Shown here: positions 8,484 through 37,699 of the stretch, one piece after another | Layout of the letters: the number at the start of each line of letters is the position of its first letter | Numbering within the stretch: the stretch's first letter is position 1 | NCBI GenBank assembly: GCA_036362785.1 | Contig: CP143625.1 | Coordinates: 1,365,401 to 1,429,400 of the forward strand | From: a beta proteobacterium MWH-UniP1 | GTDB lineage: Bacteria > Pseudomonadota > Gammaproteobacteria > Burkholderiales > Burkholderiaceae_A | DNA: 64,000 bases | Reading direction: 5' to 3' | Translations under genes and position numbers: made by a program | Notes under the pieces: generated by a model | The model's database searches: none | What the model saw: the letters and a program-made list of their open reading frames with translations, nothing else | What the model was told of the DNA's origin: nothing

Positions 8484-9263
8484 ATGCCCCGCTTTGCTGC
8501 CAACCTGACGATGCTGTTTAACGAGGTACCCTTTCTTGATCGGTTTGAAAGGGCAGCCGCCAATGGGTTTCAGGCCGTTGAGTTTTTATTTCCTTATCCC
8601 TACACGGCCCAGGAAATAAAGGAGCGCTTAGCACGCCACAACTTACAGCTGGTGCTGCACAATCTACCCGCAGGCGATTGGGATGCGGGCGATCGCGGCA
8701 TGGCCTGCGACCCAAACCGTGTCGATGAATTTCGTGCAAGCGTGGCCAGGGCCATAGCCTATGCAAGCGTTCTTGGCACCCCCCAGATCAACTGCCTGGC
8801 AGGCAAGGCGCCTGCGGGTGTGAGCGCAGCGCAACTTCGCGACACCTTTGTAGCCAACCTGCGGTTTGCAGCCGCAGAACTTCAACAGGCCGGCATTAAA
8901 CTCCTGATTGAACCGATCAATCACTTCGATATTCCTGGCTTTTATCTCAACACCACCGCACAGGCCATCGACATCATGAACCAGGTGGGCTCTGATAATT
9001 TATTTTTGCAGTACGACATCTACCATGCCCAGCGCATGGAGGGTGAATTGGCTGCCACTATTGAAAAGTACCTTGACCGCATCGCCCATATGCAATTGGC
9101 CGATAACCCCGGCCGCAACGAACCGGGCACAGGTGAGATCAACTATCGGTTTTTATTCCAGCATCTTGATAAGCTTGGCTACCCCGGCTGGATCGGCTGT
9201 GAATACAAGCCCGCCACCACCACAGAAGCGGGCCTGGGCTGGCGATCGACACTAGCGGCCTAA
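8484..9263 (+). CDS. hyi: Hydroxypyruvate isomerase
   Basis: The 259-residue TIM-barrel enzyme interconverts hydroxypyruvate and tartronate semialdehyde in the glyoxylate/glycerate route. The family N-terminus (PRFAANLTMLFNEVPFLDRF), the barrel block LVLHNLPAGDWDAGDRG, the metal-ligand strand LLIEPIN and the QYDIYHAQRMEG and IGCEYKP blocks are typical of Hyi/OtnI proteins. Directly downstream is glxR, which reduces tartronate semialdehyde, so the pair forms a coherent pathway. No glyoxylate carboligase (gcl) is in the window, so the source of the substrate remains open. OtnI-type isomerases of closely related sequence are an alternative. Confidence 0.88.
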   Translation: MPRFAANLTMLFNEVPFLDRFERAAANGFQAVEFLFPYPYTAQEIKERLARHNLQLVLHNLPAGDWDAGDRGMACDPNRVDEFRASVARAIAYASVLGTPQINCLAGKAPAGVSAAQLRDTFVANLRFAAAELQQAGIKLLIEPINHFDIPGFYLNTTAQAIDIMNQVGSDNLFLQYDIYHAQRMEGELAATIEKYLDRIAHMQLADNPGRNEPGTGEINYRFLFQHLDKLGYPGWIGCEYKPATTTEAGLGWRSTLAA

Positions 9264-22553: not shown

Positions 22554-23066
22554 TCATGAGCCAGAGACCATGGCTTTAATGTCCTTCATCAGCAGAAACA
22601 GATGAAACGAATCGGACGGACTGGGCTCAAATTCCCAGTTGAGGTACCACTGCCGGGCGGTTTCATCCTTCGCGTGCACCAGTAGCGCCCGGATGCCTGC
22701 AATGTCTGCCGCCTGAGTGGTGCGCAGCAACGCATCTTTGAGCAAAGCTTTGCCCAAGCCTGCCCCCTGATGCTGAACATCCACAGCCAATCTTGCCAAA
22801 ATCATGACAGGCACGGGGTGCTGAGGAATACCTTTGATCACTCGAGGCGCGGCAGTTGCAGGGTCGATACTGCCAACGGCAAGGCTGTAAAACCCAACCA
22901 CCGCCCCACCATAGCAACACACATAGGTTTGCGCACTGTTGGATTTTTGATTGACAAGCGCAAAGCGCTGCAAAAACTGGTTGAGTGCAACTTGGCCGCA
23001 ATCAAAGGACTCGACGGCATCCGAGCCGGCCAGTTTACGAACTGGCCCGTAGGAACGTGAACTCAA
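22554..23066 (-). CDS. GNAT-family acetyltransferase toxin (TacT/AtaT-like)
   Basis: The 170-residue protein is a GNAT acetyltransferase. The acetyl-CoA loop lies in RLAVDVQHQGAGLGKALLKDAL (Q-x-x-G-x-G), preceded by the YVCCYGGAVVGFYSLAVGS strands and followed by ARQWYLNWEFEPSP. Toxins of this type acetylate the amino group of charged tRNAs and stop translation. It starts four bases inside the upstream DUF1778 antitoxin gene (ATGA overlap), the usual order antitoxin-toxin. No membrane or signal segments are present. It is one of several TA units packed into 22.5-25.2 kb. Confidence 0.88.
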   Translation of the reverse strand: MSSRSYGPVRKLAGSDAVESFDCGQVALNQFLQRFALVNQKSNSAQTYVCCYGGAVVGFYSLAVGSIDPATAAPRVIKGIPQHPVPVMILARLAVDVQHQGAGLGKALLKDALLRTTQAADIAGIRALLVHAKDETARQWYLNWEFEPSPSDSFHLFLLMKDIKAMVSGS

Positions 23067-23341
23067 CCAAGCAACCCCGGCTCAGTTAAGAGTTTCTTGA
23101 GCTTGGGCTTGACGGTAACCGGTCGATCAAGCGCTGCCTGAAACGCCTTCCACTGCTGAGCTCCCAACTCAAAGCGGGTGCGGTCTGCCAGCGCTTGGTT
23201 GGCCGCGTTGATGCCTGCATCAAGCAAAAACTCGCTCACGTTCTTGTGCGACACGCGTGCGGCCTCCTGAAGCAATTGCTTGACCGGCGTGCTGGCGCGG
23301 ACATCAATCCGTTCGGACTTGGGCGGGGTGGCTGTACTCAT
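23063..23341 (-). CDS. DUF1778 (RHH) antitoxin of the GNAT toxin
   Basis: The 92-residue protein has an N-terminal ribbon-helix-helix DNA-binding segment (KSERIDVRASTPVKQLLQEAA) and the DUF1778 features NVSEFLLDAGINAANQAL, followed by a C-terminal tail that would wrap the toxin. It would neutralise the GNAT toxin and repress their joint promoter. ATG 23341 matches the family start. It is divergent from higB with only about 30 bases between their starts, so the two TA promoters overlap each other's coding sequence. Confidence 0.88.
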   Translation of the reverse strand: MSTATPPKSERIDVRASTPVKQLLQEAARVSHKNVSEFLLDAGINAANQALADRTRFELGAQQWKAFQAALDRPVTVKPKLKKLLTEPGLLG

Positions 23342-23371
23342 GGGGGACCTGATTTTATCGAGATTGGCACT

Positions 23372-23647
23372 ATCATAGCGTCCGGACAACATCCTGACAA
23401 TCAGTTTTTCCGATTGGGGCCCCTGTCAGGGATTCAGGCGGGGCATGCCGCTCGATTGGGGCAGCAACTGTCATCCATAGATGCTGCAACCCGCCCCGAG
23501 GATATGAACCGACCGGGCTGGGGTTTGCATCCCCTAAGAGGCAACCTTGCCGGGCATTGGTCAGTTAACGTCAATGGAAACTGGCGCCTAACATTTAAGT
23601 TTGAAAACGGAGATGCAGTATTGGTGAATTACCAGGACTACCACTGA
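23372..23647 (+). CDS. higB: HigB-like RelE/ParE toxin with a non-standard start codon
   Basis: The peptide from 23372 aligns over its whole length with HigB-type mRNA interferases: the segments GIQAGHAARLGQQLSSIDAA, EDMNRPGWGLHPLRGN, HWSVNVNGNWRLTFKFENGDA and the C-terminal VNYQDYH are diagnostic. Family homology begins at 23372, where the codon is ATC rather than ATG; no ATG, GTG or TTG is nearby in frame and the next upstream ATG (23195) lies antisense inside the DUF1778 gene. A GAG sits nine bases before the ATC. Either initiation is at a rare ATC/ATT codon, or the toxin has lost its start. higA follows after 7 bases. Confidence 0.7.
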   Translation: MIASGQHPDNQFFRLGPLSGIQAGHAARLGQQLSSIDAATRPEDMNRPGWGLHPLRGNLAGHWSVNVNGNWRLTFKFENGDAVLVNYQDYH

Positions 23648-23654
23648 GGTAACC

Positions 23655-23975
23655 ATGAACTCAATGTTTAACCCACCCCACCCAGGCTTAACTCTGCGTG
23701 ACGACATTTTGCCCGCTCTGGGCCTGCAAATCGGCCAGGCTGCGGTCCAGCTTGATGTCGACCGTACGACTTTGTCGAAAGTGCTCAACGGACGTGCGTC
23801 TATTAGTCCTGCGATGGCACTACGAATTGAGCGTTGGCTTGGCCGTGACCACGGTGGAGCGGCAGAGGTATGGCTTGCTCAGCAGGCCGCTTTTGACTTG
23901 TGGCAAGCGCGCCAAGCAACAAAAGCTTCGAAAGCCTTATCCCATGTTAAGGCCCTTAAGCTTCAATCTGCTTGA
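23655..23975 (+). CDS. higA: HigA family XRE antitoxin
   Basis: This 106-residue helix-turn-helix protein carries the HigA start PPHPGLTLRDDILPALGL, the recognition HTH QAAVQLDVDRTTLSKVLNGRASISPAMALRIERW split across residues about 30-63, and the usual basic C-terminus. It would bind HigB and repress the operon. It starts 7 bases after higB, with GAGGTAACC as ribosome site. The same GAGGTAACC and the tail of higB recur about 1 kb downstream without a second higA. Confidence 0.9.
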   Translation: MNSMFNPPHPGLTLRDDILPALGLQIGQAAVQLDVDRTTLSKVLNGRASISPAMALRIERWLGRDHGGAAEVWLAQQAAFDLWQARQATKASKALSHVKALKLQSA

Positions 23976-24034
23976 TCAGCTAAGGCACACCGTTGAGCGC
24001 AGAATGTGTCGAGCGTGCGGCTCCCAAGACTTGA

Positions 24035-24325
24035 TCACAACTCAACTGCTTCCTTCAACACGCTGTCTCGCAAGTGGCGACTAAGTTCGTGCTCTGGAAC
24101 CAGATCCACGGGGCGCCCGAGTAACTCGGCAAGTTCCCTAGCCAGCGGCAGGCGCTGCCCAAACAAATCGTAACCGCGATCAAACTCAACCAAAAAATCG
24201 ATATCACTGCTTGGCCCTTCATCACCTCGCGCCACCGAACCAAACACGCGAAAGTGCCGGGCGCCAAACTGTCTCCCCAATTGATTAATTGTGGATTTAT
24301 GGGCCCGGATTTGATTTAGGAGCAT
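24035..24325 (-). CDS. MntA-type nucleotidyltransferase antitoxin, apparently without partner
   Basis: The 96-residue protein is a minimal nucleotidyltransferase: the motif FRVFGSVARGDEGPSSDIDF has the GSxxRG active-site loop and the DxD acid pair (SDIDFLVEF). MntA enzymes of HEPN/MNT TA modules AMPylate and silence a HEPN toxin. The expected HEPN gene is not found on either side: only about 60 bases separate its end from higA and the other side is a repeat region. ATG 24325 is the likely start; a TTG at 24340 is possible. Confidence 0.75.
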   Translation of the reverse strand: MLLNQIRAHKSTINQLGRQFGARHFRVFGSVARGDEGPSSDIDFLVEFDRGYDLFGQRLPLARELAELLGRPVDLVPEHELSRHLRDSVLKEAVEL

Positions 24326-24377
24326 GAGGCGATTATGCAATCAATGACGAGGGCTAATCAATGGGGGCGCCCTAGAC

Positions 24378-24461
24378 GCTCTGGCCGCCCAGCAGGGGGC
24401 GGTTCACCAACTTACTGAGGTCAATATAAATCAAGTTTTGATGGTATCAGGGGTTCGAACC
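24378..24461. repeat. Copy A of an approximately 84-bp diverged repeat ending in a tRNA T-arm-like sequence
   Basis: This copy aligns without gaps to 25150-25233. The last 53 bases (24409-24461) match at 43 positions. It ends in GGGGTTCGAACC, which resembles a tRNA T-loop in inverse orientation, but no tRNA body adjoins it. The segment between the copies holds the higB remnant and the toxin-like/HTH gene pair. Confidence 0.65.
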
Positions 24462-24699
24462 GGCGGGCCCCGGAGGCCGTAGGGACCAAAATGCCGGACC
24501 TGGTAGCCAACAACCCCTCCTCTGCAATGCGTCTGGCAAAGCTAGCCTGCACCGATTCTCGCGGCAGATGTGCCGCTCGAAGTTGAACCATAGAGGGTTT
24601 TCGAAGTACCCGCGCTTCTGTCAAACTTTGAAAACAGAGATGCAATATTGGCGAATTATCAGGACTACCACTGAGGTAACCTGATGGCCTACCGGCCAC
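24421..24699 (-). other. Doubtful ORF in the repeat region (possible AbiEi-like HTH remnant)
   Basis: A 92-codon open frame crosses the T-arm-like repeat (its C-terminal RRFEPLIPSKLDLY) and, in its N-terminal part, the antisense of the higB remnant, so it cannot be an intact native gene. Its middle, RKPSMVQLRAAHLP followed by SFARRIAEEGLLATRSGIL, loosely resembles the N-terminal winged helix of AbiEi antitoxins. I list it as a possible remnant only; the rest of the interval 24340-24620 shows no other coding signal. Confidence 0.2.
24623..24681 (+). pseudogene. Duplicated 3' end of higB
   Basis: About 55 bases repeat the end of higB (23596-23654) with only about four mismatches, including the stop codon and the GAGGTAACC that serves higA. 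The frame reads FENRDAILANYQDYH against FENGDAVLVNYQDYH in higB. The rest of higB is absent, and a different small gene starts 3 bases later, in the place of higA. This looks like a recombination scar between two TA loci. Confidence 0.85.
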
Positions 24700-24824
24700 C
24701 TGCCAAGAGCGCGCCCATGGAGTTTTTGATCATCGACTTCTATCAAGTCGGTGTTCACGAGAATTTTTATAAAGAACTGAAACAGTATTTGCGACATGAA
24801 AAGCAAACAGGAGAAACGTCATGA
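24684..24824 (+). CDS. Small toxin-like protein, 46 residues, coupled to an HTH gene
   Basis: The short frame (MAYRPPAKSAPMEFLIIDFY near the start, then QVGVHENFYKELKQYLRHEK) ends in an ATGA overlap with the downstream HTH gene, and the join has a good AGGAGA ribosome site for that gene. I do not recognise the family with certainty. The FYKELKQYLR end resembles the C-terminal end of small TA-associated proteins, and it may be a truncated toxin whose N-terminus was replaced by the higB tail. Order toxin-antitoxin with coupling is like higBA. Confidence 0.45.
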   Translation: MAYRPPAKSAPMEFLIIDFYQVGVHENFYKELKQYLRHEKQTGETS

Positions 24825-25132
24825 ATCACGCACTGACTGCTGAGGACCTCTATACCGAGATGAAGCGTATGCCGACGACCGAGCGGATGCGGTTTTTCTC
24901 CCTGCTGGCCAGTAACGCGTTTCGGGAAGAAGACTTCACCCACGATCAGGTATTTGGTCAAACACATCAGGAGCCGTTCTCAGCTGGGAAAGCCGCCGAG
25001 TATCTGGAAGTTTCCGTGCCGACGCTGCGCCGTTATGTGCAATCGGGCAAGCTCGTACCCAGCCATGTGGTAGGGCGCAACCAGATGTTCTCGGCGCACA
25101 CTCTGCGTGCGTTTAAACGCAGTCGCGGGTGA
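24821..25132 (+). CDS. Helix-turn-helix protein, probable antitoxin or regulator
   Basis: The 103-residue protein has an N-terminal helical part (LTAEDLYTEMKRMPTTERMR and FFSLLASNAF) and a C-terminal MerR/excisionase-like HTH: PFSAGKAAEYLEVSVPTLRRYV followed by SGKLVPSHVVGRNQMFSAHTLRAFKR. It overlaps the preceding 46-codon gene by four bases (ATGA) and has AGGAGA upstream. The arrangement suggests a two-gene TA-like unit in which this protein would repress its own promoter and neutralise the partner. That function is inference; the HTH is visible. Confidence 0.7.
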   Translation: MNHALTAEDLYTEMKRMPTTERMRFFSLLASNAFREEDFTHDQVFGQTHQEPFSAGKAAEYLEVSVPTLRRYVQSGKLVPSHVVGRNQMFSAHTLRAFKRSRG

Positions 25133-25188
25133 GCAAGTTAGTACTGGTAATTTTGGCGGCCCAGCACAGGTCGCTTCGCTAACTTGCT
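25132..25188. repeat. 10-bp inverted repeat after the HTH gene
   Basis: AGCAAGTTAG (25132-25141) is perfectly inverted as CTAACTTGCT (25179-25188), 37 bases apart. It could form a long hairpin at the end of the transcript or be a recombination site. The order GTTAG...CTAAC is opposite to that of integron attC sites. Confidence 0.55.
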
Positions 25189-25233
25189 GAGGTCAAAATA
25201 AATCAGGTCCTGGTGGGGTCGGGGATTCGAACC
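25150..25233. repeat. Copy B of the approximately 84-bp repeat, T-arm-like end
   Basis: This is the partner of 24378-24461 in the same orientation. It ends TGGTGGGGTCGGGGATTCGAACC; on the minus strand this looks like the T-loop and acceptor end of a tRNA or tmRNA, but it is two bases short of a canonical T-stem/acceptor and lacks the rest of the molecule. An ancient attachment-site remnant is one explanation. Confidence 0.6.
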
Positions 25234-25254
25234 ATCTCCTGCTCTCGCTACTGT

Positions 25255-25445
25255 TTACTTTGACGGTACGACGTAGATCGGGTTCGGGTTATAGGGATTG
25301 CCAGCGCCATAAGGGTTGTTGATGCTGTTGGGGTTGTACGGATTACCGGCGCCGTTGGGATTATTGATGCACCGAGGGTCGTACGGACAATTCTGTGCTG
25401 ATGCCGCCCCAGACAGCAGCATTAAAAAATTGCGAGTTTCTTCAT
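25255..25445 (-). pseudogene. Small secreted Asn/Pro/Tyr repeat protein, frameshifted in a T6 tract
   Basis: From ATG 25445 the frame reads MKKLAIF and stops in a run of six T. One more T in that run would continue as LMLLSGAASAQ, giving a perfect signal peptide, then NCPYDPRCINNPNGAGNPYN and two further units of the type NPNSINNPYGAGNPYN, ending IYVVPSK. From ATG 25422 alone the second frame is 55 residues with no usable signal peptide. Such NPYGAGNPY repeat proteins are seen in other Proteobacteria; the function is unknown. A sequencing error or slippage in the homopolymer cannot be excluded. Confidence 0.65.
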
Positions 25446-25453
25446 AGACGGTC

Positions 25454-25918
25454 TTAGTCTACAGCCTGCGCGGTCAAGAAAAGTGACTTCTCAAGCGACG
25501 CAAAGAAGTCTTGATAGGGTTTGGGCTCCGTCACCGGTTTGCGATTGAATTCCGCATTGGCACGAACCGAGGTTTGGGTGGTTCCACGGGCTCGGGCGGT
25601 CACGTTGATTTTTAATTGATACCCCTGCAGCTTGGTAGCGCTTACCGTGCCAAGCGTCTGATCGGCCCGATCGATCACAAACCCAAGGTCTTGTAATGTA
25701 GCAATCACGTTCCTTAAGACCAGGTCTCGATCTGGCGTGTCAAAGGCCCTTGTCTGAATTGATCTAAGCTGCAGCTGGCTTTGGTCGGAATCTAGGATAC
25801 GAGTATCTGTTGTTGCACAACCGCTAAGAATTAGGGTTGATAGACAGGCAACAGCCACACCAAGCCTGACTCTGGGTAGCTTCGTGTCGCTCTTGAATTT
25901 TAAGTTTGCAGTGCTCAT
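25454..25918 (-). CDS. Lipoprotein, third gene of the lipoprotein operon
   Basis: The 154-residue lipoprotein has a hydrophobic segment ending in the lipobox LILSGC (Cys about residue 34). The mature part begins with a polar stretch, then a small alpha/beta domain: LRSIQTRAFDTPDRDLVLRN, QDLGFVIDRADQTLGTVSA, and the C-terminal DFFASLEKSLFLTAQ. The same landmarks occur in the preceding gene, so the two are paralogues from a duplication. It starts four bases before the stop of that gene. I do not recognise a named family. Likely outer-membrane anchored, facing the periplasm. Confidence 0.8.
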   Translation of the reverse strand: MSTANLKFKSDTKLPRVRLGVAVACLSTLILSGCATTDTRILDSDQSQLQLRSIQTRAFDTPDRDLVLRNVIATLQDLGFVIDRADQTLGTVSATKLQGYQLKINVTARARGTTQTSVRANAEFNRKPVTEPKPYQDFFASLEKSLFLTAQAVD

Positions 25919-26439
25919 ATTTTTTGGGCCTCCAGAAATACAGCCTTGGATAGTTTTTCGAAGAACTCGGTATGAAGTTTGGGATCTTCAAGCGTCTCTG
26001 CGAACTGCGTGTTGTCAGTCCGAGTAACAATGCGCTGAAAAGTCGCTCGAACCTGCCATGCGTCCTTAACCTTGTCGGCAGTTGGCAAAACAACGACCGA
26101 GACGCGAATCTTTTGATCTCGACTAATCGCGGTTTGTCCGCCCCCGAGCAATGCAATCAGCACAGCTGCGACCACCTCGCCAGCCTGGGTTGCATCCCGG
26201 TTTTTATTGGCAACAATCAGACCAAGCTTGGTCTCACTACCCTCCAGGGTGAAGCCCAAGTCTTGTATGACCCCACCAACTGCAGTGAGTAAATTTGTTT
26301 CCTGGACCCCCGTAAATTTGCGGGCCTCGACTTGCCTGCGCTCTAGGCTTTTAGGCGAGGTTGCCAACAGGTTCTCGGGCATGGAGACACACCCGACAAG
26401 GGACAACGCTACAAAGCCTGCTATCAGCTTTTTCATCAT
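25915..26439 (-). CDS. Lipoprotein, second gene of the lipoprotein operon
   Basis: The 174-residue lipoprotein starts MMKKLIAGFVALSLVGC (lipobox SLVGC, Cys 17). The mature domain has VEARKFTGVQETNLLTAVGG and IQDLGFTLEGSETKLGLIVA, then a Gly/Ala-rich hydrophobic stretch (VVAAVLIALLGGG, near residues 88-100), beta-rich IRVSVVVLP, and FFEKLSKAVFLEAQ at the end. The first and last blocks align with the downstream gene. Its start overlaps the stop of the BamE-like gene by one base. The function is unknown. Confidence 0.8.
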   Translation of the reverse strand: MMKKLIAGFVALSLVGCVSMPENLLATSPKSLERRQVEARKFTGVQETNLLTAVGGVIQDLGFTLEGSETKLGLIVANKNRDATQAGEVVAAVLIALLGGGQTAISRDQKIRVSVVVLPTADKVKDAWQVRATFQRIVTRTDNTQFAETLEDPKLHTEFFEKLSKAVFLEAQKI

Positions 26440-26852
26440 CAGAACCTCGATGTCTGGTAAGCGAAGTCTCTGACTTTGTTGGCCTTGTCAAACTTGATGA
26501 CCACCGTCAACGTTCTTTGCGTGGTCGATGAAGCGCCCGAGCTCCCCCGAACGCCGAGGATCAGAATATTGATGCCCCCCGAGTTGCTCGATTGGGCACT
26601 CTCGGTGGCGATCTTGTCGTAAACCCAGACTTCACGACGTTCCTCGTCTGTCGTGACCATATTGGGCGACCCGAGAACCTCGACGACCTCGGTATTGGTC
26701 ATGCCAACGCGGATTTCTTTTTGAACTCGCCCGACCGTGAGCGCCTTTTCAGACTGCTCGCCACGAACCTGATCCAGGTGGTATCCGGTGTTTTGGCAGC
26801 CAGCGAGCAGAGTCACGGCACCAATTCCTAGTAAAACCCTCAGTTTTTTCAT
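26439..26852 (-). CDS. BamE/SmpA-like small lipoprotein, first gene of the lipoprotein operon
   Basis: The 137-residue lipoprotein (MKKLRVLLGIGAVTLLAGC, Cys 19) has a SmpA/OmlA-like core: VGRVQKEIRVGMTNTEVVEV followed by LGSPNMVTTDEERREVWVYD, typical of the BamE fold with its G-M-T-x-x-x-V helix start. The C-terminal half has a Ser/Gly-rich loop (SNSGGINILILGVRGSSGAS) and TVVIKFDKANKVRDFAYQ. ATG 26852 with GGGAG just upstream is the start. It is unlikely to be the housekeeping BamE: it leads an operon with two paralogous lipoproteins and is divergent from a WYL regulator, 102 bases away. Confidence 0.75.
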   Translation of the reverse strand: MKKLRVLLGIGAVTLLAGCQNTGYHLDQVRGEQSEKALTVGRVQKEIRVGMTNTEVVEVLGSPNMVTTDEERREVWVYDKIATESAQSSNSGGINILILGVRGSSGASSTTQRTLTVVIKFDKANKVRDFAYQTSRF

Positions 26853-26954
26853 AACGCTCTCCCTTCTGATGAATGGAGTTTGTGCGCCCCGGTGTCTCAC
26901 CAGATGAGTCAGCTCTGAAATAAACTGTAGCCTCTATAACTAATAACTGAACAA

Positions 26955-27932
26955 GTGAACCGGACCGAGCGGCTCTATAAAATCCAATCCCTTCTGTCGG
27001 GCAGAAAGTCTGTGCCGATCACCACCTTTTTGGAAGTTCTGGAAGTATCCAGGGCTACTTTTCGAAGGGACCTGGAATACCTGAGAGATCGGCTTAACGC
27101 GCCGATTATCTGGGATCGTGAATCCGATGGTTATCGCCTCCAGGGCGACGGCGCCGGGACAACCTCAAGCTCCCTGCCGGGGCTATGGCTGAGCGATCGG
27201 GAGATCTTAGCCCTGTTGAGCATGATGCAGTTGCTATCCACCCTGGAACCCAACTCGCTAATCGGCAACCAGATCGAGCCGATAAAAAAGCGGCTTCAAA
27301 AGATGCTTGAGACGGGTTGTGTCGACCCCGATGAGCTTGCCAGTCGCGTACGGGTCCTGCCGCTTGCTCGGCGGCCAATAAATGCAGATATTTTCAATGT
27401 CGTGGCTGATGCCCTCTTAACCCGAGAGCGGCTTGAAATCTTTCATTTCAACAAGGGTAACAACAAAGACACAACCCGACAGGTCTCGCCGCAGCAGCTG
27501 ATCTATTACCGAGACAACTGGTATTTGGATGCTTTTTGTCACGACAAAGACGACCTACGCAGTTTCTCCCTTGATGGAATTAAGCAGGCAAAGAAAATCG
27601 ATAGCCCAGCAGTTTCATTGCCGCAAAGCGCACTAAAAGCAGCCTTCGAGGAGACCTACGGAATATTCGCAGGCAAGAAAAAGAAGGTCGCCAAACTTAA
27701 GTTCACGCCGTTTCGGGCCAGATGGGTGTCCACCGAGATCTGGCACCCAGAGCAGAAATCGTCTTTTGACCAAGAGGGAAACTATTTGCTTGAGATCCCA
27801 TACGGTGATGAGCGCGAACTGATCTTGGACATTCTTCGTCAGGGCGCGGATTGCGAAGTCTTATCCCCAGACACACTGCGACTCGAAGTCGTTCAACGGC
27901 TCAAGGCGGCCCTTAAATCCTATAAAAATTAA
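26955..27932 (+). CDS. WYL-domain transcriptional regulator (YafY-like)
   Basis: The 325-residue protein has an N-terminal HTH (LYKIQSLLSGRKSVPITTFLEV and SRATFRRDLEYLRDRL, residues about 6-50) and a central WYL domain whose core lies near QVSPQQLIYYRDNWYLDAFC (about 177-196), then a WCX-like C-terminal part. Such regulators sense nucleic acid or small ligands and often repress phage-defence or stress genes. The start is a GTG at 26955. It is divergent from the lipoprotein operon and upstream of a beta-barrel gene and the type IC restriction operon, so any of these may be its target. Confidence 0.88.
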   Translation: MNRTERLYKIQSLLSGRKSVPITTFLEVLEVSRATFRRDLEYLRDRLNAPIIWDRESDGYRLQGDGAGTTSSSLPGLWLSDREILALLSMMQLLSTLEPNSLIGNQIEPIKKRLQKMLETGCVDPDELASRVRVLPLARRPINADIFNVVADALLTRERLEIFHFNKGNNKDTTRQVSPQQLIYYRDNWYLDAFCHDKDDLRSFSLDGIKQAKKIDSPAVSLPQSALKAAFEETYGIFAGKKKKVAKLKFTPFRARWVSTEIWHPEQKSSFDQEGNYLLEIPYGDERELILDILRQGADCEVLSPDTLRLEVVQRLKAALKSYKN

Positions 27933-28004
27933 CATGACAGTCTCACTTGTTGAGATTGGCTCAAGTCAAAGATGACGACTCCTTAACCTTGAAAAGGAGT
28001 TCAG

Positions 28005-28622
28005 ATGAAAAAGTATCTGGTTGCAGTTGGCATCATGGCCGCGACCGCCTCGACGGCTTTTGCCCAGGCTAGCCAAAATAGAACGGCGTTTTATATGGGC
28101 GTATCTGCGGGGCAAACCAAGATTGATACCGGCGTATCTGGTCTTACTGGCACAGCCTCACTAGACGAATCCGACACCGGTTACAAAATTTTCGGCGGCT
28201 TCAAATTAGACGACATTTGGAGCGCCGAGCTGCAGTATGCAGATTTTGGCACTGCTTCGTTAAAAGGAAATAACGGAGATCGGTTTACTTTCGAGGGAAC
28301 TCAGTATCAATTCACTGCTGACAACGTTAACCTGTCCGTGAAAGCGAAATCATTTGGCGCCGCAATTGTTGCGGGATACGACGTGACAAAAGTAGTCCGG
28401 CCCTATGCAAAGCTAGGTCTGCACCGCTGGGACTCAGACGCTACGATCTCTTCGAGTGCTGGGAACGCCTCGCTTTCAGACAGCGGTACAGATCCTTTTT
28501 ATGGGGTTGGCATTCAATTTTCAATCACGGGCCAATTAGCCGCGCGAGTGGAGGCCGAGCACTACAAGTACGACAGTGAGAAAGCTCAGCTCATCTCTGT
28601 GGGACTGATGTATAGATTCTAA
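28005..28622 (+). CDS. Outer-membrane beta-barrel protein (OmpA-like transmembrane domain)
   Basis: The 205-residue protein has a signal peptide (MKKYLVAVGIMAATASTAFA, cleavage before QAS) and alternating amphipathic strands of an eight-stranded porin-like barrel: FYMGVSAGQTKID, GYKIFGGFKLDDIWSAELQY, RPYAKLGLHRWD and FYGVGIQFSITGQLAARVE. It ends in LISVGLMYRF with terminal Phe, the signal recognised by the BAM complex. No peptidoglycan-binding domain follows. A strong AAAAGGAG site lies upstream and an intrinsic terminator right after. Its role is unknown; it may belong with the neighbouring lipoproteins. Confidence 0.85.
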   Translation: MKKYLVAVGIMAATASTAFAQASQNRTAFYMGVSAGQTKIDTGVSGLTGTASLDESDTGYKIFGGFKLDDIWSAELQYADFGTASLKGNNGDRFTFEGTQYQFTADNVNLSVKAKSFGAAIVAGYDVTKVVRPYAKLGLHRWDSDATISSSAGNASLSDSGTDPFYGVGIQFSITGQLAARVEAEHYKYDSEKAQLISVGLMYRF

Positions 28623-28628
28623 GTTTTG

Positions 28629-28664
28629 CCGGGGGGGGAGCTAGACACCCTGCCCCCCCCTTTT
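28629..28664 (+). terminator. Terminator after the beta-barrel gene
   Basis: A GGGGGGG run (28631-28638) pairs with CCCCCCC (28653-28660) around a loop of about 14-17 bases, followed by TTTT. It starts 7 bases after the stop codon. Confidence 0.75.
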
Positions 28665-28738
28665 CCACTTGGCAAAGCCCGCTCTGTCGCCCTTTTGGTA
28701 CCTAGGCCCGGAAGTGCCTGTTCTGGTTAAAGGTCGGG

Positions 28739-28987
28739 CTATGTCATGTAAGGCGGTAGCTGTGGCTCACCCAAGAGCACTTCTGGCCCGCGTTGGGTCG
28801 AAATACGGACCGCAACACATTCGTCGTCGATGATCGCCTGCTTGAGTTCAGTGGCGGTTCGGCAAAAGATGACCCTGCGATCACACTCTCCGCATAGCCG
28901 AATGCGCTCGTCAGCCGTCGGAGTAAGCGAATCCCAGATCTTGGGGCACTTGAATTTGAATTCACAGTTACGGATTTCTGTATTCAT
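28739..28987 (-). CDS. Small cysteine-rich protein of a widespread uncharacterised family
   Basis: The 82-residue protein contains five cysteines in the first half, in the order NCEFKFKCPKIWDSL, RIRLCGECDRRVIFC, plus a later DDECVAV. The pattern with CPK-x-W, a central CxxC and VxFC recurs in hypothetical proteins of many phyla as I remember them, and suggests a zinc or metal knuckle. ATG 28987 starts at the conserved region, and the open frame upstream of it is not supported. It stands alone on the minus strand between the barrel gene and the restriction operon. Function unknown. Confidence 0.7.
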   Translation of the reverse strand: MNTEIRNCEFKFKCPKIWDSLTPTADERIRLCGECDRRVIFCRTATELKQAIIDDECVAVRISTQRGPEVLLGEPQLPPYMT

Positions 28988-29117
28988 TTTTCTGAACTTA
29001 CCCTTACCCAGTCTCACCGGATGAGCCTGGGTTGCCGTAGGATGGCCTGTTCCGTCACTATTGGACTGGATTGCCCCAAATTCCGTTAAACTGGAATCTC
29101 TATAAAGATTACAGTCA

Positions 29118-29324
29118 ATGAACGACCAAATAAAGCCCGCCATGACCGTCCGCGACGTTGCGGCCTTCCTGGCCGTAGACGAGAAAACGATCTACCGCCT
29201 AGCCCAACAAGGGAAGCTACCCGGCTTTAAAGTCGCGGGTACGTGGAGGTTTCAGATGCCGGACATTCAAGGGTGGATAGACGAGCAGAAGAGACTTCAA
29301 GGCAAGCCCCGCCCAAGTCTCTGA
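29118..29324 (+). CDS. Excisionase/AlpA-type helix-turn-helix protein
   Basis: The 68-residue protein is a single winged HTH of the excisionase (MerR-like) type: [20 protein letters not shown] then [16 protein letters not shown] and [12 protein letters not shown]. It begins 239 bases before the hsdM start and ends 32 bases before it, in the same direction, so it may regulate the restriction operon or be a left-over of the element that carried it. No integrase is found near it. Confidence 0.85.
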
Positions 29325-29356
29325 TCCACGAGCCAACAAAAAACAATAGAACTGAG

Positions 29357-30922
29357 ATGACAAACACATCAAGCCAATCCCAACGCGCCGAACTTCAACG
29401 GCGAATCTGGCAAATCGCCAATGATGTGCGTGGTGCAGTTGACGGCTGGGATTTCAAGCAATACGTGCTGGGCACCCTGTTCTATCGCTTTATCAGCGAA
29501 AACTTCGCCAGTTATATTGAAGGTGGTGACGACAGCGTCAACTATGCCCGGTTACCCGATAGCGTCATCACCCCGGAGGTCAAAGATGACGCCATCAAGA
29601 CAAAGGGTTACTTCATCTACCCAAGCCAGATGTTCGTCAATGTCGCGGCTAACGCCAACAGTAACGAAAGCCTAAACACCGAACTGGCCAACATCTTCGC
29701 TGCCATTGAGGCGTCTGCCAACGGTTACCCATCAGAGCGCGATATCAAAGGCCTGTTTGCTGACTTCGATACCACCAGCAACCGGCTGGGCAATACCGTC
29801 AAAGACAAAAACGCTCGCCTGGCTTCGGTGCTCAAGGGTGTGGCAGAACTGGACTTTGGCGACTTCGATGCCAGCCACATCGACCTGTTCGGTGATGCCT
29901 ATGAATTCCTGATTTCCAACTACGCTGCCAACGCGGGTAAGTCTGGGGGCGAATTTTTCACGCCCCAGCAGGTCTCCAAGCTGATCGCCCGGCTGGCCAT
30001 GCACGGGCAAAGCAGTATCAACAAGATTTACGATCCCGCCTGCGGTTCAGGCTCGCTATTGCTGCAAGCCAAGAAGCAGTTTGATGCCCACATCATCGAG
30101 GACGGCTTTTTTGGCCAGGAACTCAACCACACCACCTATAACCTGGCGCGGATGAACATGTTCCTGCACAACGTGAACTACGACAAGTTCAATATTCAGC
30201 TGGGCGACACGCTTATTACGCCGAACTTTGGTGACGACAAACCGTTCGACGCTATCGTTTCCAATCCGCCGTATTCGGTAAGGTGGATCGGCAGCGATGA
30301 CCCCACCCTCATCAACGACGAGCGCTTTGCCCCGGCCGGTGTGCTGGCACCCAAATCCAAGGCCGACTTTGCCTTCGTGTTGCACGCGCTTAGTTACCTA
30401 TCGGCCAAAGGCCGTGCGGCCATTGTTTGCTTTCCGGGCATTTTCTATCGGGGTGGCGCGGAGCAGAAGATCCGCCAGTACTTAGTCGACAACAACTATG
30501 TTGAGAGCGTGATTTCGCTTGCCCCCAACCTGTTCTTTGGCACCAGCATCGCCGTGAGCATTTTGGTGCTGTCCAAACACAAAACCGACACCAACACGCA
30601 GTTCATTGACGCCAGCGGACTCTTCAAGAAAGAGACCAATAACAACACTCTGCTGGATACGCATATCGATGAAATCATGGCGGCGTTCGGCAGCAAGGCG
30701 AACATCGAACATTTCGCTCAGTCCGTTCCGTTCGAAAAAGTCGCTGCCAACGACTACAACCTGTCTGTCAGCAGCTATGTAGAGGCCAAGGACAACCGCG
30801 AAGTGGTGGACATTGCCCAGCTCAATGCTGAGCTCAAAATTACAGTGGCAAAAATTGACCAGCTGCGCAAAGACATTGACGCGATCGTGGCCGAGATTGA
30901 AGGTGATGAACGAGAGGTATGA
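29357..30922 (+). CDS. hsdM: Type I restriction-modification DNA methyltransferase subunit (type IC)
   Basis: HsdM transfers a methyl group from S-adenosylmethionine to adenine in the target set by HsdS. It has the N-terminal HsdM helical domain ([40 protein letters not shown]), the AdoMet motif [12 protein letters not shown] near residue 227 and the N6-adenine motif SNPPY near 303. At 521 residues it matches EcoR124I-type (IC) HsdM in length and N-terminal sequence as I know it. ATG 29357 follows a GAGA-type site. The stop overlaps the hsdS start (ATGA). Confidence 0.95.
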
Positions 30923-32106
30923 GCAGCATGAAATTTTTGGAAAAGCTGCTGGATGGGGTGACGGTTGAGTGGAAGAAGCTCGGCACAGTGACTAAAACCG
31001 TGACGGCACCCTCAAAACTGAAAAGCCAATCCTATCGCGCCACAGGGAAGCTTCCAATCATTGATCAGGGGATAGAGTTTATTGCTGGTTACACTGATGA
31101 AGATGTAACTCCCGTTCAAGCCGGAAAATATATAATTTTTGGTGATCACTCTGAGCATATCAAGTACGTAGATTTTCCTTTTGTCCAAGGCGCTGATGGA
31201 CTAAAAATTCTAATTCCGTTGTCGGCAAATGCCAGATATATCTACCATGCCTTTCTGAACTTTTATACAAAGGAATTGAGCTACAAACGGCATTGGGCCA
31301 CAGCGCAGCAGACCTTAATCCCCATTCACTGCCCAGACAACCCAAAAAAATCGCTTGAAATCCAAACCGAAATCGTCCGTATTTTGGACGCATTTACCGA
31401 ACTTACAGCCGAACTTACAGCCGAACTTACAGCCCGCAAAAAGCAATATAACTTCTACCGCGACCAGTTGTTGAGTTTTGAAGATGGGGCCGTGGACAAG
31501 TTGCCTATGGGGCACCCTTCAGTGGGTGAGTTCATTCGAGGTGGTGGTTTGCAGAAGAAGGATTTTGCGGATCAAGGCGTTGGATGCATTCATTACGGAC
31601 AAATTTACACTTATTACGGAACGAGCACTGAAAAGACGAAATCCTTCGTCTCTGAGGAGTTTTTCAAGAAGGCGCGAAAAGCCAAAACTGGTGACTTAGT
31701 TATTGCCACGACCAGTGAAAATGACGAAGACGTTTGCAAGGCTGTCGCATGGTTAGGAGATAAGGAAATTGCTGTCAGCAGTGATGCTTGTATTTACCGA
31801 CATAAGCTCAACCCAAAATTCGTTTCATACTTCTTTCAAACCGAGCAATTTCAGAAACAAAAAAGGCAACATATTACGGGTACAAAAGTACGAAGGGTGA
31901 ATGCAGACGACCTTGCTAAATTACTAATACCGATTCCTTCGCTAGACGAGCAAGCCCGAATCGTCGCCATCCTTGATAAATTCGACGCGCTGACGAACTC
32001 GATCACCGAAGGCCTGCCCCGCGAAATCGAACTACGACAAAAGCAGTACGCTTATTATCGCGACCTATTGTTGAGTTTTCCGAAACCGCAAGGGGTGGCC
32101 GCATGA
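30919..32106 (+). CDS. hsdS: Type I restriction-modification specificity subunit (type IC)
   Basis: HsdS fixes the bipartite DNA target. The 395-residue protein has target-recognition domain 1 (about 15-145), the central conserved helix [20 protein letters not shown] followed by [16 protein letters not shown] (about 154-190), recognition domain 2 (about 200-335), and a distal conserved helix that ends [15 protein letters not shown]. The central spacer carries three 12-bp repeats, the hallmark of EcoR124I/EcoDXXI-type HsdS. Its recognition-domain DNA is visibly more AT-rich than hsdM and hsdR, as expected for swapped domains. It overlaps hsdM and the BRO-N gene by four bases each. Confidence 0.95.
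31399..31434 (+). repeat. Three 12-bp tandem repeats in the hsdS spacer
   Basis: The unit GAACTTACAGCC occurs three times without a mismatch and encodes ELTA each time. In EcoR124I-family enzymes a gain or loss of one such unit (TAEL) changes the spacing between the two half-sites recognised and so the specificity. The perfect identity of the units makes slippage likely here too. Confidence 0.95.
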
Positions 32107-32960
32107 GCGACGCACAACGCAAAATCAAATTGTTTGAATCACAAACCATCCGTTCGCATTGGGATGCAGAGACGGAAGAATGGTTTTTTTCCGTGGTAGA
32201 TGTGGTGGCAGCCCTGACGGATAGCGTTAATCCAACGGATTATCTTAAAAAATTGCGCAAGCGTGATGCGCTTTTAGGTGAGTACCTGGGGACAAATTGT
32301 CCCCAGGTAGCCATGCAAACCGACAGTGGCAAGATGCGCAAGACCCTTGCTGCCAGCACTGAGCAACTGCTGCGTATTGTCCAATCCATACCATCCAAAA
32401 AAGCCGAACCCTTCAAGCTCTGGCTGGCGGAGGTGGGCCGCGAGCGCCTGGATCAGCTGCAGGACCCGGAACTGTCTATTGAGCAGGCCATGGTCGACTA
32501 TAAGCGCCTGGGCTATTCCGATAACTGGATCAATCAACGGCTTAAAAGTATCGAGATTCGCAAGGAACTCACCGACGAATGGAAAAAGCACGGCCTGCAA
32601 GAGGGGCCAGAGTTCGCCTTTTTAACCGATGTCATCTACAAGACATGGGCGGATAAATCAGCCAAGGAATACAAACAGTTTAAGGGCCTGAAGAAGGAAA
32701 ATCTGCGCGACAACATGACCAACAATGAGTTGGTGCTGAGCATGCTGGCGGAACTGTCCACCAAGGAAATCTCGGAAACATTGCAGCCCCAGACGCTGGA
32801 CGACCACGAGGACGTGGCCAAGCGCGGTGGTGGCGTTGCGAAACAGGCAAGACTGAAGCTGGAAGCCGAAACGGGCAAAAAGGTGATTAGCCCGCAAAAT
32901 GCCAAGCAGATTCGGGCCCTGAGTCAGGCAAAAACCAAAAAGCCAGAGGGTCGGGCGTGA
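32103..32960 (+). CDS. BRO-N domain protein inside the type I restriction operon
   Basis: The 285-residue protein begins with a BRO-N/antirepressor-like domain: [32 protein letters not shown], then [12 protein letters not shown] and, after a variable piece, [20 protein letters not shown] and [17 protein letters not shown]. The C-terminal half is helical, includes [19 protein letters not shown] and [20 protein letters not shown], and ends basic. This two-part layout resembles DinD-type (DNA-damage-inducible) proteins. It overlaps hsdS and hsdR by four bases each, so it is translated with the restriction subunits. Possible roles are control of restriction or sensing of DNA damage; none is demonstrated. 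Confidence 0.8.
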
Positions 32961-35900
32961 GCGATTTCAAGACCATCGCCGAATCTAAGAACTTTATCGT
33001 TCTGGACAAATACAGTCCAGAGTGGAAGGTGGCCGAGAGCTACCAGAGCGAAAGCGACTTGGAACGGGAATTTATTCAGGATCTGGTGAATCAGGGCTAT
33101 GACTATCTACCCAACCTAAACACGCCAGAAGCCCTGCTTGCTAATCTGCGCGCGCAGCTGCAAACACTTAATACGGTGCAGTTCGCTGACAGCGAGTGGC
33201 TGCGCTTTGTAGAGACCTTTCTTGATAAGCCCAGTGACGGCATCGTTGAAAAAACCCGAAAGATTCACGACGACTACATTCACGACTTTGTTTTTGACAA
33301 CGGGCGCATCCAGAACATCTATCTGCTGGATAAGAGAAATATCGCCCGCAATAAGGTGCAGGTCATCAAGCAGTTTGAGCAGACCGGCACGCATGCCAAC
33401 CGCTACGATGTAACGATCTTGGTCAACGGCCTGCCGCTGGTGCAGGTGGAATTAAAAAAGCGCGGTGTCGCGATCCGCGAAGCGTTTAACCAGGTGCATC
33501 GCTACAGCAAAGAAAGCTTCAATAGCGAGCATTCTTTGTACAAGTATTTGCAGCTATTCGTAATCTCGAACGGTACCGATAGCCGTTACTTTGCCAACAC
33601 CACCCAACGCGACAAGAATAGCTTTGACTTCACCATGCACTGGGCGAAGGCAGATAACAGCCTGATCCGCGACTTGAAAGACTTCACGGCCACCTTCTTC
33701 CAGAAACACGCCCTGCTCAATGTGCTGCTGCACTACTCGGTGTTTGATGTTAGTAACACGCTGCTGGTAATGCGCCCGTATCAAATTGCCGCCACAGAAC
33801 GCATCCTGTGGAAGATCCGCAGTAGCCATCAGGCCAAGAGCTGGAGCAACACGGAGGGCGGCGGCTACATTTGGCACACCACCGGCTCCGGCAAGACACT
33901 GACTAGCTTCAAGGCGGCGCGTCTGGCCACTGAACTGGACTTTATCGACAAGGTGTTCTTCGTGGTGGACCGCAAAGATCTGGACTACCAGACCATGAAG
34001 GAATACCAGCGCTTCTCGCCGGACAGCGTAAATGGCTCAGACAGCACGGCAGGCCTGAAGCGCAACCTGGAAAGGAACGACAACAAGATTATCGTTACCA
34101 CCATCCAGAAGCTCAACAACCTGATGAAAAGCGAAGGCGACCTGCCCATCTACAGCAAGCAGGTGGTGTTCATTTTCGATGAATGCCACCGCAGCCAGTT
34201 TGGCGAGGCGCAAAAGAACCTGAAAAAGAAGTTCAAGAAGTTCTACCAGTTTGGCTTTACTGGAACGCCGATCTTTCCCGAAAATGCCTTGGGGGCGGAG
34301 ACCACTGCCAGTGTGTTTGGCCGCGAGCTGCACTCATACGTCATCACCGATGCGATTCGCGATGAAAAGGTGCTGAAGTTCAAGGTGGATTACAACGATG
34401 TGCGCCCGCAGTTCAAAGACATTGAAACTGAGCAAGACGAGAAAAAGCTAAGTGCGGCGGAAAATAAACAAGCCCTGCTGCACCCCGATCGCATCCGCGA
34501 GATCACCCAGTACATCCTGAACAACTTCCGGCAAAAGACCCACCGCCTGCACGCGGGTAACAAGGGTTTTAACGCCATGTTTGCCGTCAGCAGCGTAGAC
34601 GCAGCCAAGCTGTACTACGAATGCTTCAAGGCACTACAGAAAGACAGTGAAAAGCCGTTAAGGGTGGCCACTATTTTCTCGTTCGCGGCCAACGAGGAGC
34701 AAGACGCGATTGGCGACATTCAAGACGAAAGCTTTGAGGTGTCTGCCATGAACAGCAGCGCCAAGGAGTTTCTGAGCGCCGCGATTGCAGACTACAACGC
34801 ACTTTTCAAAACCAACTTCAGCGTCGATAGCAATGGTTTTCAGAACTACTACCGTGATCTGGCTAAGCAGGTCAAAGCAAAGGAGGTCGACCTGCTGATT
34901 GTGGTGGGCATGTTCTTGACCGGGTTTGACGCGCCCACACTGAATACCTTGTTCGTAGACAAGAACCTGCGCTACCACGGCCTGATGCAGGCCTATTCGC
35001 GCACGAACCGTATTTTTGATGCCACTAAGACCTTCGGCAACATCGTCACCTTCCGCGACCTGGAGCAGGCGACCATTGACGCCATCACCCTGTTTGGTGA
35101 CAAGAACACCAAGAATGTGGTGCTGGAGAAGAGCTACAAAGAATACATGGAGGGCTTCACCGATGCAGCCACGGGTGAGGCGCGTCGTGGCTTTATGGAA
35201 GTGGTGAAGGAGCTTGAAACGCGCTTCCCCGACCCCACGGCGATCGAGAAAGAATCAGACAAAAAAGACTTTGCAAAGCTGTTTGGTGAGTATTTACGCA
35301 TTGAGAACGTTTTGCAAAACTACGACGAGTTCGCCGCTCTACGCGCCTTGCAGAGCGTGGATATAACCGATCCGGCGGCGCTGGAGGCGTTTAAAGCCAA
35401 ACACTATCTGACTGATGACGACTTGGCTGTGCTGCAAACGATCAGGCTTCCCGCCGATCGAAAGATTCAGGACTACCGTTCGACCTATAACGATGTACGC
35501 GACTGGTTGCGCCGCCAGCAATTGTCCGAGGACAAGGCGGAATCCACCATCGACTGGGATGATGTGGTCTTCGAGGTGGATCTGCTGAAGTCACAGGAAA
35601 TCAACCTGGATTACATCCTGGAATTGATCTTTGAGCACAACAAGAAAACCAGAAGTAAAGCCGAGCTCGTGGACGAAGTGCGCCGGGTGATTCGAGCAAG
35701 CCTTGGCCACCGTGCCAAAGAGAGCTTGCTGGTGGACTTTATTAACCAGACTGATCTGGAGCAACTTGGTGAAAAGGCCAGCGTGATCGAGGCTTTCTTC
35801 GCCTTTGCTCAAACAGAGCAGCAACGTGAGGCGCAGGAGCTCATCAATACCGAAAACCTGAATGCCGAGGCCGCAAGGCGCTATATCACCGCCTCCCTTA

Positions 35901-36058
35901 AGCGGGAATTCGCTAGTGACAGCGGCACAGAGCTTAATGCCGTTCTACCCCAAATGAGCCCCTTAAACCCACAGTATCTCGCCAAGAAGCAAAGCGTCTT
36001 CCAAAAAATCGCAGCTTTCGTTGAGAAGTTTAAGGGCGTGGGCGGCAAAGTTCTATAA
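32957..36058 (+). CDS. hsdR: Type I restriction endonuclease subunit (type IC)
   Basis: HsdR translocates DNA and cuts it when unmethylated target is bound. The 1033-residue protein starts at a GTG. The PD-(D/E)xK nuclease residues are D151 (NRYDVTILV), E165 and K167 (VQVELKKRG), the same numbers as recalled for EcoR124I HsdR. The helicase has Walker [11 protein letters not shown] near 309-318, the DECH box [10 protein letters not shown], motif III FTGTPIF and the late motif [10 protein letters not shown]. The C-terminal helical domain binds the methylase core. A perfect 40-bp palindromic terminator follows. All catalytic motifs are intact, so the enzyme should be active. Confidence 0.96.
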
Positions 36059-37608: not shown

Positions 37609-37699
37609 TGGCGGAGACGGAGGGATTCGAACCCTCGATGCGCTTTTGGCACATACTCCCTTAGCAGGGGAGCACCTTCGGCCTCTCGGTCACGTCTCC
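37609..37699 (-). tRNA. serX: tRNA-Ser (anticodon GCU)
   Basis: The 91-nt gene (CCA encoded) has acceptor GGAGACG (37699-37693) pairing with CGTCTCC (37619-37613), discriminator G and CCA at 37611-37609. The anticodon loop CTGCTAA with GCT (37665-37663) sits on stem CTCCC/GGGAG; a long variable arm typical of class II serine tRNAs follows, then the T-loop GGTTCGAATCC. It reads AGC/AGU codons. It follows lysC on the same strand after 16 bases. A 14-bp copy of its 3' end at 36117 suggests it has been an integration site. The symbol is only a conventional label. Confidence 0.93.

Follow-up and report, generated by a model that had tools for sequence, protein, structure and literature searches.

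What could three overlapping lipoprotein genes, opposed to a WYL-type transcription factor in accessory DNA, be doing for their host? We addressed this question for a locus of the beta proteobacterium MWH-UniP1, within a stretch of 64,000 nucleotides (the window) that covers positions 1365401-1429400 of a single-contig 2.05-Mb genome with a completeness of 99.82%. On the minus strand of the window, the trio encodes a BamE-like lipoprotein followed by two paralogous lipoproteins, paralogue 1 (A-type) and paralogue 2 (B-type). It belongs to a three-gene family of fixed order that occurs across Pseudomonadota and is carried by phages and plasmids and, once, within a conjugation region. Its character as mobile accessory cargo is well supported by these settings, and we tentatively propose that it masks or remodels the outer-membrane surface, most likely excluding phages or conjugative elements.

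Three lipoprotein genes and their annotation

The product of the first gene passes the Pfam gathering cut-off of the BamE family PF04355 (E 8.8e-6; 25.9 bits against 23.2), and its profile matches BamE chains in the PDB (best E 6.3e-5). It also matches the phage family phrog_3135 (3.8e-10), to which PHROGs assigns no function. However, it differs from BamE itself in lying far under the cut-off of the NCBIfam BamE equivalog (18.4 against 93 bits) and in being a second copy, the stronger BamE match of the host genome being located at 677996-678199 (89.6 bits). Since the host keeps this BamE and its own BamC (52033-53022 of the window), the trio adds to the beta-barrel assembly machinery (BAM) and does not replace it. 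The start of the BamE-like gene was taken as the ATG at 26852, the mechanical open reading frame (ORF) beginning at GTG 26900.

Along the trio, the genes overlap by 1 base and then by 4 bases, within the 1-4 bases given in a preliminary description of this DNA. That description had also called the second and third lipoproteins paralogues of no recognised family, which agrees with their mutual similarity (E 1.8e-4, and the sequence alignment) and with the searches below. Two of the three sequence blocks that it assigned to both proteins, QDLGF and FF-x-x-L-x-K-x-x-FL-x-AQ, are indeed common to the pair, but the third, R-x-x-Q-x-R-x-F, reads R-x-x-E-x-R-x-F in paralogue 1. Up to an E of 1, Pfam has no match for either paralogue, and at this threshold PF06804 (BamC) matches neither of them nor any of 7 family members. 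The three trio lipoproteins match no family of PADLOC-DB (2023; E 0.01). In NCBIfam and PHROGs, the paralogues find only weak matches near the signal-peptide region; beyond these, the paralogue family is without a name in Pfam, NCBIfam, PADLOC and PHROGs. By title and the start of the abstract, such a trio is not described among the literature matches listed on BamE- or BamC-like proteins, exclusion and WYL.

Of the family's ORFs, 49 of 54 for paralogues and 26 of 28 for BamE-like proteins fit a simple lipobox pattern, with an aspartate at position +2 in one of each. Under the +2 rule of lipoprotein sorting, the residues at this position here fit sorting to the outer membrane.

Predicted fold of the paralogues

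AlphaFold models were obtained from six alignment rows for the B-type protein (mean predicted local distance difference test score 74.9) and from nine rows for the A-type protein, whose model is less sure (69). The B-type model forms one confidently predicted domain that starts near residue 50 and has the order beta-alpha-beta4-alpha, and the A-type model comprises a single helix-grip domain plus an inserted helix. The insert is hydrophobic, with a best 13-residue mean on the Kyte-Doolittle scale of 1.6-2.6 in 18 A-type rows, against 0.5-1.8 in 18 B-type rows and 0.5-1.7 in 9 single-copy rows.

When compared to the PDB with Foldseek, both models give BamC as the top match. The first 13 matches of the B-type model (E 5.3e-7 to 1e-4) and the first 10 of the A-type model (1.4e-4 to 2.3e-3) are all BamC chains, as recognised by entry title and chain letter. 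With VIA-align, the B-type model superposes on the BamC N-domain with a Z of 10.6 (2.6 Å, 93 residues). The top match by this method is the Francisella lipoprotein Flpp3 (Z 11.6, 2.7 Å, 93 residues), which has the same fold but only 5-6% identity; a relation at the sequence level is not apparent.

Like BamC, the paralogues are thus lipoproteins with a predicted helix-grip domain. They differ from it in having one domain per chain instead of two, in their short linker, in the missing PF06804 match and in being encoded beside a BamE-like gene. About 20 residues separate the lipobox Cys34 of the B-type protein from its first strand (E56), leaving no long BamD-binding N-terminal segment; the first domain of E. 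coli BamC comprises residues 101-212 (available text of PMC3359395). The A/B profile has no significant match among PDB sequences (best E 0.7). Structure prediction and homology search, the route that the preliminary description had proposed for the paralogues, therefore led to a predicted BamC-like fold and to no named family, and sequence kinship to BamC appears weak and is not proved.

Distribution and family architecture

With the longer paralogue as query, the family was found in 2 of 26 genomes of the host's family and in 4 of 399 of its order, where the shorter paralogue detected 5. Searched with a family profile, the class gave 15 positive genomes out of 369 and the phylum 17 out of 398; the two samples overlap in genomes and include the host's own. 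The module is patchy at both levels. Among named relatives, the closest one to bear the unit is L005, a Burkholderiaceae metagenome-assembled genome of the same genus as the host. One B-type query matched 6 of 72,556 plasmid records, three of which were read. Scans of viral contigs detected the family on four of them (L076/L083, L081, L082 and L085); a further candidate, L084, was a false match to an unrelated frame of 66 aa, and another viral scan turned up no conserved stretch.

The neighbourhoods of 32 loci were read, with five of the 17 phylum matches (G811, G1006, G1057, G1099 and G1126) left out. The complete order BamE > A > B is present in 16 loci (the window itself, L005, L017, L042-L047, L077, L078, L081, L083 and L122-L124), and BamE with one paralogue in nine (L016, L018, L049-L051, L079 and L125-L127). 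The paralogue pair was found without BamE in L048 and in L052, the latter at the end of a contig. L082 and L085 are truncated by contig ends, and three loci are irregular (L053, L129, and L128 with five paralogues and one BamE). Because the gene order recurs across Pseudomonadota, the unit is more than a chance arrangement.

In a tree of 45 rows, which excluded the divergent or irregular L052, L053, L128 and L129, the A-type and B-type proteins form separate clades (support 95/87 and 99/93), the A/B labels having been given by operon position before the tree was built. The A-type gene precedes the B-type gene in 17 of 17 pairs, and 8 of the 9 single-copy paralogues group apart from both clades. 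The simplest reading of separate clades and constant order is that A and B stem from one old duplication, the order having been kept since.

The family is expanded at 6569-9458 of L128 (G1039, a complete 2.0-Mb genome), where it forms two opposed sets; G1099 likewise has five family matches. Outside the 32-locus count, L054 (7290-8401) and L055 (8133-9213), from two genera of one family, encode weak, distant relatives of 220-260 aa, each followed by a second lipoprotein-like frame.

Mobile settings of the module

In L081, the trio is flanked by portal (phrog_21, 1e-53) and head/protease (phrog_4523, 3.1e-80) genes on one side and by the major tail gene (phrog_1407, 1.8e-14) on the other, and is read from the opposite strand, as phage cargo genes are. 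In L083 the order is barrel (PF13505, 1.2e-7), BamE, A, B and portal (phrog_12082, 9.7e-12), on a contig that also bears major head (phrog_9953, 2.3e-36) and integrase genes; as the trio sits at the contig end, its belonging to the phage is less certain. On the L085 contig, BamE and A accompany a Mu-like phage transposase (phrog_310, 1.5e-100), a transposition protein (phrog_296, 3.3e-40) and a repressor, and in L082 a B-type gene at the contig end adjoins a DNA methylase (PF01555) and a ResIII gene (8.4e-11).

Plasmid-borne trios include one on a plasmid of 7,989 bp for which a RelE/ParE toxin is annotated (L078) and one next to an IS5 transposase on a 704-kb Azospirillum plasmid (L077). A BamE-like gene with a single paralogue lies inside an F-type conjugation cluster with TraN, TrbC and TraU genes (L125, 6658-7429). 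An integrase is found 1.8 kb from L051, AbiEii and AbiEi genes 3-4 kb from the L005 unit, and a RhuM gene in the neighbourhood of L124.

These settings support the view, taken in the preliminary description, that the trio is an envelope unit of its own within accessory DNA. That description had named a wide occurrence of the trio in core regions lacking WYL or defence genes as counter-evidence. This is partly borne out: core loci without WYL do exist, in the two-gene form only, and the complete trio is carried by phages and plasmids.

As a separate observation, a long CRISPR-like array with about 45 repeat copies (core GTCTTAATCCCTTCTTCATCAGGTCTCGATTACTAC) adjoins the trio at 4000-7400 of L045.

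Proposed function and alternatives

A role in conflict accords better than housekeeping with the phage, plasmid and conjugation settings. Starting from what was observed or computed, namely gene order, predicted fold, mobile contexts and repeats, we infer outer-membrane placement, a complex, WYL control and exclusion. In the mechanism that we propose, the three lipoproteins would be exported, lipidated and probably placed in the outer membrane, where they may act together, possibly docked at BAM or at outer-membrane proteins. Surface proteins would be masked or remodelled in such a way that competing phages or conjugative elements could not enter. The co-encoding of the lipoproteins in a fixed order suggests one assembly, and the presence of the module on phages and plasmids and in a conjugation region argues for an advantage common to such elements, which could be to keep rivals out. 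BamC is reportedly surface-exposed, so that masking would be possible. Lipoproteins that block entry and are borne by mobile elements are known from phage T5 (Llp) and the F plasmid (TraT); they may work like the trio by analogy only, their proteins and folds being different.

If so, the trio may change what attaches to, or enters, the cell, and, should it act on BAM or surface proteins, mobile elements would be using the outer-membrane assembly machinery to guard their host. A narrower version appears doubtful to us. This would be a new envelope exclusion system consisting of a mobile mini BAM accessory set (BamE and a 'split BamC' in two lipoproteins), with the hydrophobic helix insert in one lipoprotein, blocking or editing of receptor or barrel display, and WYL control in some hosts.

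A number of results weigh against exclusion by a BamC-like mobile module. In Foldseek, the B-type model reaches only modest TM-scores against BamC (0.34-0.44 when normalised by query length, at most 0.54 by target length), and the root-mean-square deviation is at least 4.6 Å, with about 20 Å for two-domain chains. The helix-grip fold is also widespread: in VIA-align, domains of the Bet v 1-like and KA1 types score about 9-11, near the BamC score. The hhalign comparison of the A/B family with BamC is weak (probability 7.5%; score 24.2, with a maximum of 20.4 in 60 column shuffles and 18.8 in the reversed control); an initial probability of 99% was rejected as an artefact, as column-shuffled controls scored equally. 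The A- and B-type queries from L083 had no match among 50,697 INPHARED phage records, from which the module is rare in isolated phages. Mobility was judged from the neighbourhoods locus by locus, without a matched count of mobile neighbours, and in L125 a stop codon breaks the paralogue of the conjugation cluster. WYL genes were detected by a two-query phmmer search in only 3 of the 32 loci (the window, L005 and L122), the first two belonging to one genus, and the barrel family of the window in only 2. Finally, three loci lie in core chromosome, between GAPDH and GlnE (L018), by glucokinase (L049) and alongside an RlmN-like gene and a pseudouridine synthase (L126), all in the form of BamE with one paralogue.

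Among the alternatives, the one that survives best, although we hold it to be unlikely, is a dedicated assembly aid, in which the trio would supplement BAM to fold an accessory barrel (here OmpA-like) or tune BAM in stress. The BamE family match and the predicted BamC fold of the paralogues argue for it, as do the barrel gene that adjoins the module both in the window and in L005, the different barrel (PF13505, 1.2e-7) directly before the trio in L083, and the operator-like sites common to trio and barrel gene. Lineage-specific BAM lipoproteins also have a precedent: according to the available text of PMC3359395, BamF of Alphaproteobacteria is such an additional lipoprotein linked to BAM, but with only the N-terminal motif of BamC and not its fold. 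Against an assembly aid, no relative of the window or L083 barrels was found in the other loci, other barrel families not having been sought, and a barrel-like start noticed by eye near the L017 trio (8866-9171) has no Pfam match. Moreover, parts for outer-membrane protein assembly are of no obvious use to phages and small plasmids, and the paralogues lack the long N-terminal segment through which BamC binds BamD.

We give somewhat less credence to an ordinary set of envelope-stress or housekeeping lipoproteins that is incidentally moved around, for which the two-gene forms in core neighbourhoods (L018, L049 and L126) and the additional service of WYL proteins in DNA-damage responses, as described in excerpts of the literature, would speak, but which is at odds with the patchy presence of the family (15/369 in the class, 17/398 in the phylum, 2/26 in the host's own family) and its carriage by phages and plasmids. 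An immunity module whose lipoproteins intercept envelope-targeting toxins of rivals is improbable: membrane-anchored BamE-like proteins are the most widespread of the newly found immunity proteins to Lipocone toxins in the available text of PMC12419801, but there such proteins are described as fast-evolving and toxin-linked, while the BamE-like protein of the trio shows 54% identity across two families of the order and has partners of predicted BamC fold, and inspection of the neighbourhood lists by eye, rather than by a systematic toxin scan, revealed no polymorphic toxin.

Probable regulation by the WYL protein

Masking or remodelling by the trio would, in this genome, probably be under the control of the divergent WYL protein. 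The preliminary description had correctly placed this gene 102 bases from the trio and a beta-barrel gene after it (Table 1). The WYL protein comprises HTH_11 (1.3e-5), WYL (6.5e-18) and WCX (2.9e-14) domains, in the HTH-WYL-WCX layout of BrxR and CapW. Similarity in sequence is weak, with a match to the BrxR chain at E 0.0052 over residues 135-211 only and a better one to PafBC (2.8e-12), and the trio's WYL gene adjoins lipoprotein genes and no known defence system. The likeness to BrxR and CapW consists in this layout and in inverted repeats whose half-sites are 5 bases apart. According to the available text of PMC9122601, repeats of this spacing are bound by BrxR, which is a WYL-type regulator of defence islands.

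The inverted repeat TCTCA-N5-TGAG occurs in the gap between trio and WYL gene, ahead of the barrel gene and ahead of a gene for a small Cys-rich protein. The repeat at the barrel gene is conserved in L005, where the WYL and barrel genes occupy the same places as in the window and the trio-gap repeat is a variant. The window contains 4 matches, both strands counted, against 0.37 expected, and the 2.05-Mb genome 11 distinct sites, 3 of them in the module. Three sites within 2131 bp were obtained in 115 of 200,000 random placements, a figure that overstates the case, as the motif was derived from two of the window sites and the counts are partly circular; only the third site, at the Cys-rich gene, and the L005 barrel site are independent.

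The common repeat suggests that trio, barrel gene and Cys-rich gene form one regulon, which the WYL protein probably controls via these candidate sites; the barrel gene is probably a member and the Cys-rich gene a possible third target. The locus thereby supplies both a putative regulon and a putative operator for a regulator of the WYL type. In L122, a WYL-WCX gene (WYL 1.7e-9, WCX 1.8e-13) that is weakly similar to that of the window lies directly upstream of the trio, and the gap between them contains a different repeat. Regulation by WYL, as earlier suggested, is therefore plausible from the common repeat and from L122, but with the gene in so few loci WYL is no fixed partner of the trio. 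A promoter scan found none in the module or L081, and a terminator scan gave 6 in the module against 5.0 by chance and none in L081. Further TCTCAC-type inverted repeats in the genome, at 333100-333114 and 549457-549470, could be regulon sites.

The barrel protein has a weak match to phrog_108 (Lom; 1.7e-4), and the Cys-rich protein has no Pfam family, either in its longer ORF form at E up to 1 or in its short form.

Table 1. Genes and candidate operators of the trio locus (window coordinates)
Feature	Position	Strand	Remarks
BamE-like lipoprotein, trio gene 1	26439..26852	-	137 aa; ATG 26852; PF04355
A-type lipoprotein (paralogue 1)	25915..26439	-	174 aa; predicted BamC-like helix-grip domain and hydrophobic insert VVAAVLIALLGGG
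B-type lipoprotein (paralogue 2)	25454..25918	-	154 aa; one predicted BamC-like helix-grip domain
WYL-WCX transcription factor	26955..27932	+	GTG start; PF13280, PF25583; divergent, 102-bp gap to trio
OmpA-like outer-membrane beta-barrel gene	28005..28622	+	PF13505 (OMP_b-brl, 5.4e-24), PF01389; next after WYL gene
Small Cys-rich protein (CPKxW...CGEC)	28739..28987	-	82 aa from ATG 28987
Candidate operator TCTCACCAGATGAG	26895..26908	+	43 bp upstream of BamE-like ATG; L005 counterpart is the variant TATCAGCAGATGAG
Candidate operator TCTCACTTGTTGAGA	27941..27955	.	Upstream of barrel gene; same place in L005 GTCTCACTCTGTGAGAC
Candidate operator TCTCACCGGATGAG	29012..29025	+	Upstream of Cys-rich gene, 25 bp from ATG

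Host neighbourhood

Around the trio, the region 22554-36058 contains toxin-antitoxin, type I restriction-modification and helix-turn-helix (HTH) genes, in agreement with the accessory block with restriction and toxin-antitoxin genes that had been described before. A GNAT gene (PF13508, 5.3e-8) is paired with a TacA1-type antitoxin (3e-24), a HigB-like toxin (1.9e-15) with an HTH gene, and the restriction-modification operon encodes HsdM, HsdS and HsdR, with a Bro-N gene (32103-32960; PF02498, 6.7e-8) between HsdS and HsdR. An MntA-like nucleotidyltransferase is also present, its match lying under the family cut-off, and a tRNA-Ser is located at 37609.

Two genes flanking the island are on different contigs in the relatives listed. 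Downstream of lysC, G013 has other genes and the contig of G014 stops about 0.4 kb on; these flanks are compatible with a variable site and are no proof of one. Just ahead of HsdM, an HTH protein (29118-29324) is near MAD1 of the methylation-associated defence system, matching NF047737 at 1.4e-18, under the cut-off.

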